From positions 1-39,813 of the forward strand of contig CANNGA010000024.1 in NCBI GenBank assembly GCA_947504035.1: a stretch of DNA of 39,813 bases. The letters run 5' to 3'. A program made the translations under genes and the position numbers. Below the pieces are notes generated by a model, which saw nothing but the letters and a program-made list of their open reading frames with translations, was not told the origin of the DNA and ran no database searches. The DNA comes from an uncultured Flavobacteriaceae bacterium (lineage in GTDB: Bacteria > Bacteroidota > Bacteroidia > Flavobacteriales > Flavobacteriaceae). Numbering within the stretch: the first letter of the stretch is position 1; each line of letters starts with the position of its first letter. Positions 38,390 to 39,740 of this stretch are shown here, one piece after another.

Positions 38390-39475
38390 TTATGCTTGTT
38401 CTAAAACAGCCATTAATCTATGATTAAGGTATAATTTTTCTTTCCCTACTTTTTCAGAAATTAGAAAACCTGCTTTTTCTAGGGCTATTAAATAATTACC
38501 TACTGTTTTAGATGTTCCTAGTTTTTCATCAATTAAAAATTGTTTTTTGGTGTATGGTAATCTGAATAAAATTTCAATTAATTCCTTGCTATATACTTTA
38601 GGTAAAGCTTCTTTTATTTCTGCTCCAATTTTATCCATTAGCGTTGTTACATCCTTTAGTCTTTGCAACCCTTTATTAGCAGTATATTCTACCATTTCAA
38701 GCATATATAATATCCAAGATTCCCAATTATTGCTTTCAGTAACTTCTCGCAACTTTTTGTAATAATCTGCTTTGTTTTTTATGATATACTCACTTAAATA
38801 AATTGCAGGAATATCTAATAGTTTTTCTATTTTTAAATAGAGTAATAATAAAATACGCCCAGTTCTACCATTACCATCACTAAATGGGTGTATGGCTTCA
38901 AATTGATAATGCATTAGCGCCATCTTTATTAAAGGGTCTATGGTGTTGTTTTCATTAATAAAAGTTTCTAAATTAGATAACTTTTCACGTATTATAGTTT
39001 CTCCTGTTGGTGGTGTATATATTATTTCTCCTTTGGTGTTTTTTAAAGTAGTTCCTGGAGTTGTTCTAATACCTGCGGTGTTTTTTTTAATGCTTTGCAC
39101 AATATCTATACATAAATTTGTACTTATAAAAGGGCGTTTTTCTATATCGCGCAAGCCATTCCAAAGTGCTTCTTTATAGCTTAGTACTTCTTTTGTAGCT
39201 GGGTTATCAAACTTTTTATCAGCAACTAAAGATTTATATAAATCATCGTTAGTTGTAATAATGTTTTCTATTTCGGAGCTTGTTTTTGCTTCTTTTAGAT
39301 GGATTGTATCTAAAAATAACGTTGGATTTGGTAAATTAGTTAGCATACCATTAAGCTGCGCTAATGCTCTACTGGCGTCAATAGTTTTACGTAAAACTTT
39401 TGTCGTTTCTAACGTTATACGTGGAGGCAATAGCGGTAAGCTATTGTAAGGCGTATCTCTATTAAAATCTGTCAT
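38390..39475 (-). CDS. Fic family protein with C-terminal winged-helix domain
   Basis: A 361-residue protein from the ATG at 39475 (a TTG at 39484 would add three residues). Fic enzymes transfer AMP or other phospho-groups to proteins. The canonical motif HPFSDGNGRTGR (catalytic H196) is intact. The inhibitory helix motif (S/T)xxxE(G/N) is present as SSEIEN (S66-N71), N-terminal as in class II Fic proteins, which stay inactive until the helix moves. The C-terminal 75 residues (YTKKQFLIDEKLGTSKTVGNYLIALEKAGFLISEKVGKEKLYLN) look like a winged helix, so the protein may bind DNA. No toxin-antitoxin partner gene is adjacent. A symmetric array of operator-like sites lies right upstream. Confidence 0.92.
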   Translation of the reverse strand: MTDFNRDTPYNSLPLLPPRITLETTKVLRKTIDASRALAQLNGMLTNLPNPTLFLDTIHLKEAKTSSEIENIITTNDDLYKSLVADKKFDNPATKEVLSYKEALWNGLRDIEKRPFISTNLCIDIVQSIKKNTAGIRTTPGTTLKNTKGEIIYTPPTGETIIREKLSNLETFINENNTIDPLIKMALMHYQFEAIHPFSDGNGRTGRILLLLYLKIEKLLDIPAIYLSEYIIKNKADYYKKLREVTESNNWESWILYMLEMVEYTANKGLQRLKDVTTLMDKIGAEIKEALPKVYSKELIEILFRLPYTKKQFLIDEKLGTSKTVGNYLIALEKAGFLISEKVGKEKLYLNHRLMAVLEQA

Positions 39476-39480
39476 TTTAA

Positions 39481-39573
39481 ACAAGGGTAATAATTACTCA
39501 CGTTTTATTAACGAGGGTAAATATAATGAAAATTTACCTTTGTAGTAAATACAAGAGTAAATTTTACTCTTGT
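39481..39573. promoter_or_regulatory. Six-half-site symmetric operator array upstream of fic
   Basis: Six 11-bp half-sites fit the consensus ACAAGGGTAAA: plus orientation at 39481-39491, 39511-39521 and 39551-39561; minus orientation at 39493-39503, 39533-39543 and 39563-39573. They form two close pairs (1-nt spacer) and one wide pair (11-nt spacer). Each half-site has an exact mirror position about 39527 (sums of mirrored ends all equal 79054). The best pair, ACAAGAGTAAA/TTTACTCTTGT, is perfect. The unit at 39533 contains TACCTTTG, a perfect -7 box, on the plus strand; the others on the minus strand contain near matches. The array starts 5 nt upstream of the fic ATG, so it probably controls fic. 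The binding protein is not identified; the Fic winged helix is one candidate. Confidence 0.8.
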
Positions 39574-39740
39574 ATTTTCCGTTTTTAAAATAATTTGATT
39601 TTTTCTTCATAGCAATGCTAAAAAAATCAGATTATTTTTAAAATGAGCCCTAGCGGCAGGCGCAATGTATAGTTTGTCTTTTTATACAAAAGTATAAATG
39701 TGCATTTGTATAAATATACAAAGTTATAAGTGTCTATAAT
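39485..39740. other. Non-coding stretch between fic and the right terminal repeat
   Basis: It carries the operator array, the AT-rich hairpin, a GC-rich island (AGCCCTAGCGGCAGGCGC, about 39646-39663) and a set of TTATACAAA/TTTGTATAA inverted words near 39681-39715 that may be another operator or promoter. No coding frame was supported. Confidence 0.5.
39587..39638. other. Long AT-rich hairpin
   Basis: AAAATAATTTGATTTTTT (39587-39604) pairs with 39621-39638 over 18 bp with one G-T pair. The 16-nt loop contains a second small stem (TAGC/GCTA). It lies between the operator array and the right terminal repeat. No gene reads into it inside the window; it may block transcription from the element outside. 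Confidence 0.55.

Follow-up and report, generated by a model that had tools for sequence, protein, structure and literature searches.

The fic gene that lies near the right end of the window (the whole stretch of DNA analysed here, 39,813 nucleotides, which is one entire contig of a 4.23-Mb genome) and reads leftward is preceded by a 95-bp array of six alternating half-sites. We consider it very likely that this array is the fic operator and that it is read by Fic itself, in such a way that SoFic dimers would bind to it and repress their own promoter. That the enzyme switches off its own gene at the array is very probable because the array has been kept in the relatives and changes in step with the DNA-reading helix of the protein. 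The coordinates of the features are collected in Table 1.

Table 1. The fic gene and its upstream array in the window
Feature	Position	Strand	Basis or remark
fic gene, SoFic-type protein adenylyltransferase, 361 aa, ATG start	38390..39475	-	Pfam, PADLOC, NCBIfam, structure model
C-terminal winged helix PF21248	38414..38641	-	Pfam and AlphaFold2 model
Predicted recognition helix (residues 322-334); operator class goes with residue 323, which is K in this protein	38474..38512	-	Model and column scan
Entire predicted operator array, 95 bp, overall dyad centre 39527	39480..39574	-	
Half-site h1, distal dyad A	39564..39574	-	
Half-site h2, distal dyad A	39550..39560	+	
Half-site h3, central dyad B	39534..39544	-	
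Half-site h4, central dyad B	39510..39520	+	At most 2 mismatches in 7 at 86/86 KTVG loci (anchored on dyad B)
Half-site h5, proximal dyad C	39494..39504	-	
Half-site h6, proximal dyad C	39480..39490	+	4 nt from ATG
-7-box-like element TATATTTA, overlapping h4	39518..39525	-	Flavobacterial consensus except in the last base

Each of the six 11-mers shows 0-3 mismatches from the consensus AACAAGGGTAA (fic strand). Their starts on the fic strand are located at offsets 0, 14, 30, 54, 70 and 84 of 39574..39480, with orientations + - + - + - and a start-to-start spacing of 14/16/24/16/14. The positions mirror exactly around 39527, the words being similar and not identical, and these offsets bear out the six alternating half-sites with mirror positions that had been described in the initial annotation. 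The limits proposed there (39481-39573) were correct to one base (39480-39574 here), and the proximal edge at 39480 is found 4 nt from the ATG (39475). For alignment with other SoFic groups we chose as 7-nt core the end of the half-site, AGGGTAA; the centres of this core fall at 39567, 39557, 39537, 39517, 39497 and 39487, and their spacing of 10/20/20/20/10 bp is close to integral helical turns, drifting somewhat if a turn is taken as 10.5 bp. Independently of the choice of core, the centres of the three dyads A, B and C are 35 bp apart and dyad B exceeds the other two in width by 10 bp. On a rigid template (a profile from 37 relatives, one of them 98% identical) the window scored +87.8, against -45.0 for the best of 200 dinucleotide shuffles, in agreement with the earlier claim that chance would not give such an array. 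Next to the array, an AT-rich 23-nt inverted repeat was observed at 39582-39643 (arms 91% complementary, 16 nt apart), and a second inverted repeat at 39673-39722; both may be terminator-like or of another nature.

Conservation was analysed in the best 80 of 153 relatives (genome contigs), all 80 of which were examined, using 37 loci for training of the template and 43 more distant loci (71-77% protein identity) for testing. The initial annotation had proposed a comparison of close fic homologues, and the array was present upstream of fic in 80/80 relatives: the rigid template exceeded the best of 200 shuffles in every one, including 43/43 test loci, a result that stands for conservation and not for independent origin, since the training and test sets are of common ancestry. 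Within the locus as a whole, the best site was located 0-10 nt before the ATG in 41 of the 43 test loci, the exceptions being L071, with the site 27 nt away, and L076, with an overlap by one base. Site position and spacing were constant across 71-98% protein identity. At least one half-site fell below zero on the template in 21 of the 80 loci (below -5 in 10 of these); the losses affected h1, h2, h5 and h6, and the central dyad was always kept. In 39 loci, pairwise identity was 64.7% for the arrays versus 27.9% for the next 95 nt upstream. The flank contained an ORF of 100 aa or more at 65 loci (mechanical ORFs, some of which are perhaps not genes), and in these 53 upstream-neighbour families were counted, which indicates that there is no constant neighbour on the upstream side. 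A template-free de novo recurrence test exceeded the best of 20 shuffles in 55/80 near loci and in 42/79 other loci.

A profile built from 40 arrays was used for genome searches. A search of the genome had been suggested at the outset; in the window's own genome the profile matched only the fic array (E 1.1e-21; next best E 0.127), with no second strong site. Matches with E <= 0.01 amounted to 30 in 296 genomes of the phylum and 55 in 299 genomes of the family, the window's own genome being included in each set. Inspection was centred on the strong matches (E <= 1e-9), which in the phylum and family searches corresponded to 26 distinct places, the window's included. Eighteen lie before a full-length fic frame (8 of them being loci already among the 80, some in the profile itself), one before a fic split in two and six next to remnants of fic, and no fic was seen at L210; hence, 25 of the 26 strong places are at fic or its remains. 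These locations indicate that the array belongs to fic, without sign of a regulon. A regulon under one factor was considered and rejected, the own genome lacking a second strong site and the strong arrays elsewhere being nearly all at fic or its remains. The remains are clear at L205 and L206, were recognized by eye only at L207 and are faint at L209, L244 and L248 (tblastn E 0.03-3.6). A weaker array (E 3.2e-5) accompanies a C-terminal fic scrap at L253; at this locus and at the six just named, the arrays have seemingly outlived a decayed fic. In a separate case, one contig (G158:C18) carries two SoFic genes 6.5 kb apart (L124 and L128, 66.0% and 65.5% identical to the fic of the window), each with a GGGTAA-type array, and the same genome has two further SoFic genes with other helices (L098, L131).

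The closest relatives of the Fic protein of the window were found in Flavobacteriaceae. It contains Fic_N, Fic and SoFic-like_C, each above the Pfam cut-off, and matches the PADLOC SoFic profile with E 8e-114. The NCBIfam SoFic equivalog model gave 420 bits, below its 550-bit cut-off, and by these scores the protein is of the same family as the NCBIfam SoFic and not of the same equivalog. An AlphaFold2 model of the protein superimposed on SoFic 3zcn with a TM score of 0.93 (40% identity), residues 67-79 and 81-89 being the parts of low confidence. The winged helix behind the catalytic domain, noticed in the initial annotation, was confirmed by Pfam (SoFic-like_C) and by this model, in which it comprises helices 297-303, 311-316 and 322-334 and a wing formed by strands 339-343 and 346-350. 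From its position within the winged helix, we take helix 322-334 to be the recognition helix. The catalytic motif HPFSDGNGR (pattern HPFxDGNGR) occupies residues 196-204 of the ORF and TSSEIEN residues 65-71 (ATG numbering in both cases); H196-F198, D200-R204, S66-E68, E70 and N71 were invariant in 28 relatives. By analogy, TSSEIEN is presumably the motif of the N-terminal inhibitory helix. Domains, motifs and fold place the protein among the class II Fic proteins of SoFic type. The fic product is probably an AMP-adding enzyme, and its likeness to the PADLOC SoFic model points to a probable anti-phage role. The ATG was chosen as the start of fic on the basis of the comparison with the relatives. 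An in-frame TTG is present at window position 39484, 9 nt upstream of the ATG, and falls within half-site h6.

In order to extend the comparison beyond the near relatives, 296 Bacteroidota genomes were searched for the SoFic C-terminal domain, which was found above the cut-off in 75 genomes. The upstream regions of 30 loci, 55 further regions (four of them repeats), 21 plasmid loci and 4 loci from a viral collection were compared; seven matches above the cut-off were left out (G128, G171:C29, G173 twice, G094, G035:C12 and G195). Many other SoFic genes are preceded by inverted arrays with different words according to the recognition-helix group, the groups having been initially assigned by eye. 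The word is AGGGTAA with the KTVG helix (the group of the window), TGTCGAA with KRQTA, TGTAAAG/TGTATAG with [ST]R[PIL]TA, TGTTAAG/TGTTCG with the alphaproteobacterial [ST]RQTA and ACATTAAA with xENTA. When spans were left free (17-36 nt, later 13-36 nt), the wide dyad measured mostly 27-28 nt. Sites 0 and +20 are preset in the word-anchored counts, and the KRQTA analysis was hence repeated with free spans (13-36 nt); in the 17 rows of this group, dyads of 17 and 27 nt were obtained, the others being mostly of 29 nt and bridging neighbouring dyads. At the KRQTA loci with both the 17-nt and the 27-nt dyad, the centres were exactly 35 bp apart in 7/7 cases, including the alphaproteobacterial plasmid locus L195. 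This plan is that of the window, with its difference of 10 and its distance of 35. With the wide dyad as anchor (86/86 KTVG loci), flanking sites occurred at -30, -20, +40 and +50 in 70, 64, 57 and 78 of 86 cases, respectively. The anchored KRQTA loci had the -30, -20 and +40 sites in 6, 9 and 7 of 14 loci, and no +50 peak was seen in this count. In a word-agnostic count of spans, long palindromes obscured the signal, and the plan did not emerge from this count by itself. The [ST]R[PIL]TA and [ST]RQTA groups have the 27-28-nt dyad in common, and in the former it recurs about every 41-42 bp in several loci, e.g. L116, L120, L134 and L149. At many other SoFic genes no array was detected by eye or by script, among them L090, L091, L108, L110, L113, L114, L127, L143, L144, L153, L158 and L162. 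L090 and L091 have a KRQTA helix and, by eye, apparently begin inside or just after another reading frame in an operon-like manner. The helix ERKAASRYL is shared by L098, L099 and L102, and a TGTACC-like word was observed in L098 and L099.

The correspondence between helix and word was analysed by a column scan of 44 loci with a TGTx dyad (span 27-28, equal x in both arms), from which the KTVG group was excluded and to which no helix filter was applied. Residue 323, the second residue of the predicted recognition helix, was the best predictor of A versus C/T after TGT among 361 columns (43/44 in leave-one-out; next columns 41/44), a split that was chosen post hoc, after the helix-filtered counts. 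In those counts, the 31 loci with Q gave C in 13, T in 9, A in 0 and no call in 9, and the 31 loci with P, I or L gave A in 20, T in 1, A/C in 1 and no call in 9; shuffled sequence yields a word call in 2.2%. The lone T among the P/I/L rows (L119) looks by eye like a wrong dyad. For three-way A/C/T calls residue 323 ranked only 29th of 361, and shared ancestry is therefore not removed from the match of word and helix. Every one of the 13 C calls belongs to a KRQ-type row, and the 9 T calls among the Q rows are confined to a single alphaproteobacterial clade. A quick tree of the catalytic part alone joined four SRPTA and 13 [STAV]RQTA rows in a 17-row clade with support 100, leaving the order of the P and Q rows inside it unsettled. 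The two SRPTA rows with a call in this clade are TGTA and all nine called Q rows are TGTT; helix and word differ here together on one background. Different words were also found before paralogues of one genome: G187 has TGTCGAA (L096) and TGTAAAG (L136), by script, and an array similar to ACATTAAA at a third paralogue (L154), by eye, and G266 and G158 provide further cases, also by eye. The operator word thus appears to follow the recognition helix, a relation that is partly confounded by ancestry.

Regarding the promoter, an overlap of the array with promoter-like words TAnnTTTG had been pointed out. The overlap holds for a -7-like element, TATATTTA, which sits in the central dyad B; its form is TAnnTTTA, which differs in the last base from TAnnTTTG, the flavobacterial -7 consensus according to excerpts of PMC9723704. 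In the array alignment the main conservation outside the half-sites consists of TATAT and a T tract, and no conserved -33 element was seen by eye. A promoter within the array is predicted from the -7-like box.

A Fic protein that represses itself has been described in Yersinia pseudotuberculosis. According to excerpts of the published work, this toxin, CccR, has a C-terminal HTH, binds an inverted repeat and requires dimerization for operator binding, its recognition helices being 70.2 A apart; the operator is one inverted repeat, AGATAATCAT-N26-ATGATAATCT, of 46 nt (10 bp-N26-10 bp), and CccR is a secreted T6SS effector (PMC9755527). Both proteins join Fic to a C-terminal DNA-binding domain and have inverted repeats in their own promoter (predicted in our case). 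In contrast to the single repeat of CccR, taken here by its published description, the array of the window has three dyads and six half-sites with other words and spacing, and nothing at this fic indicates secretion. SoFic (3eqx, 3zcn) and EcSofic have the same three domains and fold as the Fic of the window. EcSofic is a toxic dimer that needs its CTD for toxicity, as stated in excerpts of PMC12249575; no description of an operator was found for SoFic or EcSofic, and the EcSofic paper contains no mention of DNA binding, transcription or helix-turn-helix, the word promoter appearing there twice, for cloning vectors in both cases. DNA binding by SoFic itself was still undemonstrated in 2023, according to excerpts of PMC10628234. 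The same excerpts describe CbFic2 (8cil), a class II Fic with a DNA-binding winged helix, which differs from our case in that it binds random DNA, without a specific operator, and AMPylates host histone. In the comparison with the model of the window's Fic, the CbFic2 structures ranked 10 and 12, with 15-16% identity, far weaker than SoFic. Toxin-antitoxin operators are palindromes under the promoter of their own module, bound by the antitoxin or by the complex; in the window, unlike in those modules, toxin and repressor would be one polypeptide.

From these data we infer binding by Fic, its action as dimers and repression upon binding, as follows. In a SoFic-type dimer, the two C-terminal winged helices would sit on the inverted half-sites of a wide dyad, whose cores are about two helical turns apart (20 bp, about 68 A). 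With one more dyad on each side, narrower by 10 bp and centred 35 bp away, the sites would number six and the dimers up to three. Considering the precedents of CccR and EcSofic, we take the array to accommodate as many as three SoFic dimers, which would lie over the -7-like box and the leader. The binding of an oligomer contemplated in the initial annotation is compatible with the array to this extent, i.e. up to three dimers. Bound Fic would cover the transcript start as well as the -7-like box within dyad B, and free Fic would therefore repress its own gene. Such self-repression would keep a toxic AMPylator scarce. Autoregulation through the C-terminal winged helix, as initially proposed, is well supported at the sequence level: the array tracks the gene and not its neighbours, and the words change with the helix while the plan stays.

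Other explanations of the array were weighed. Any strong repressor could make use of six half-sites in front of a toxin gene, and the array might be the operator of another, dedicated regulator whose gene lies elsewhere in the genome, a reading for which nothing direct speaks; the 53 neighbour families among 65 loci, the lack of a second strong site in the own genome and the variation of the words with the recognition helix of Fic itself, also within one genome, make it quite improbable. The inverted repeats might instead work at the RNA level, as hairpins of the fic leader (an attenuator, or control of translation), given that the dyads are foldable and that dyad C lies between the presumed transcription start and the ATG. 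However, paired cells amounted to 74.0%, versus 75.0% when the arms were shuffled independently (40 sequences), and double changes were 12, 5 and 5 in dyads A, B and C, versus 9.9, 4.7 and 10.4 expected (51 arrays), i.e. without excess. The arms vary independently, which indicates that the half-sites are DNA sites; furthermore, a transcript started from the -7-like box should not include dyad A, which is located upstream of this box. On the pairing and double-change counts the hairpin reading was rejected as very improbable. Insertion of a mobile palindromic repeat in front of fic would agree with the persistence of arrays beside broken fic genes, but there is a single copy in the genome, 25 of the 26 strong places are at fic or its remains, and place and spacing are constant at 71-98% protein identity; the searches of the genome, the phylum and the family led us to discard this origin, to which we give hardly any credence.

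Two further readings share with self-repression the premise that Fic is the binder. Fic might bind the array chiefly as an antidote, keeping the toxin harmless or positioned, or might act as an activator. Excerpts of the CbFic2 work report that DNA stimulates this enzyme and suggest a shift towards a deAMPylating dimer (PMC10628234), and the need of EcSofic for its CTD in toxicity (PMC12249575, in part) points in the same direction. Against this, reporter activity rose 3.3-fold without CccR (PMC9755527, in part), and the central dyad covers the -7-like box; we regard this role as unlikely. Unlikely too, although somewhat easier to conceive, is that the operator itself is the antidote: while bound to the array, the SoFic toxin would be kept in inactive or deAMPylating dimers, and destruction, unwinding or titration of the host DNA by an infection would both derepress the gene and free the enzyme, the array serving as sensor of an anti-phage toxin system made of one gene. 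Were this so, the SoFic family would be a toxin, antitoxin and repressor in one polypeptide, and its specificity would be rewritten by changes in the recognition helix, residue 323 foremost, with no cross-talk between paralogues in one cell.

Coming back to self-repression by Fic, the initial annotation knew of no such array for a Fic gene. A single inverted-repeat operator has been published (that of CccR), and in a literature search that covered mainly open papers, without preprints, the CccR paper and reviews citing it were found, but no multi-site SoFic array, conservation study or residue-base rule. What is new is the array, its age and reach, the plan shared among groups and a residue-base rule that is partly confounded by ancestry. 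The SoFic winged helix has been visible since the release of a crystal structure in 2008 (3eqx), with no DNA target found for it in the searchable literature. The present data supply predicted operators for this family, which is associated with defence, in Bacteroidota, some Alphaproteobacteria and others, together with a simple rule from residue to base that can be tested. The finding suggests a way in which a toxin gene lacking an evident antitoxin may stay quiet, and where the trigger for its release might be sought.
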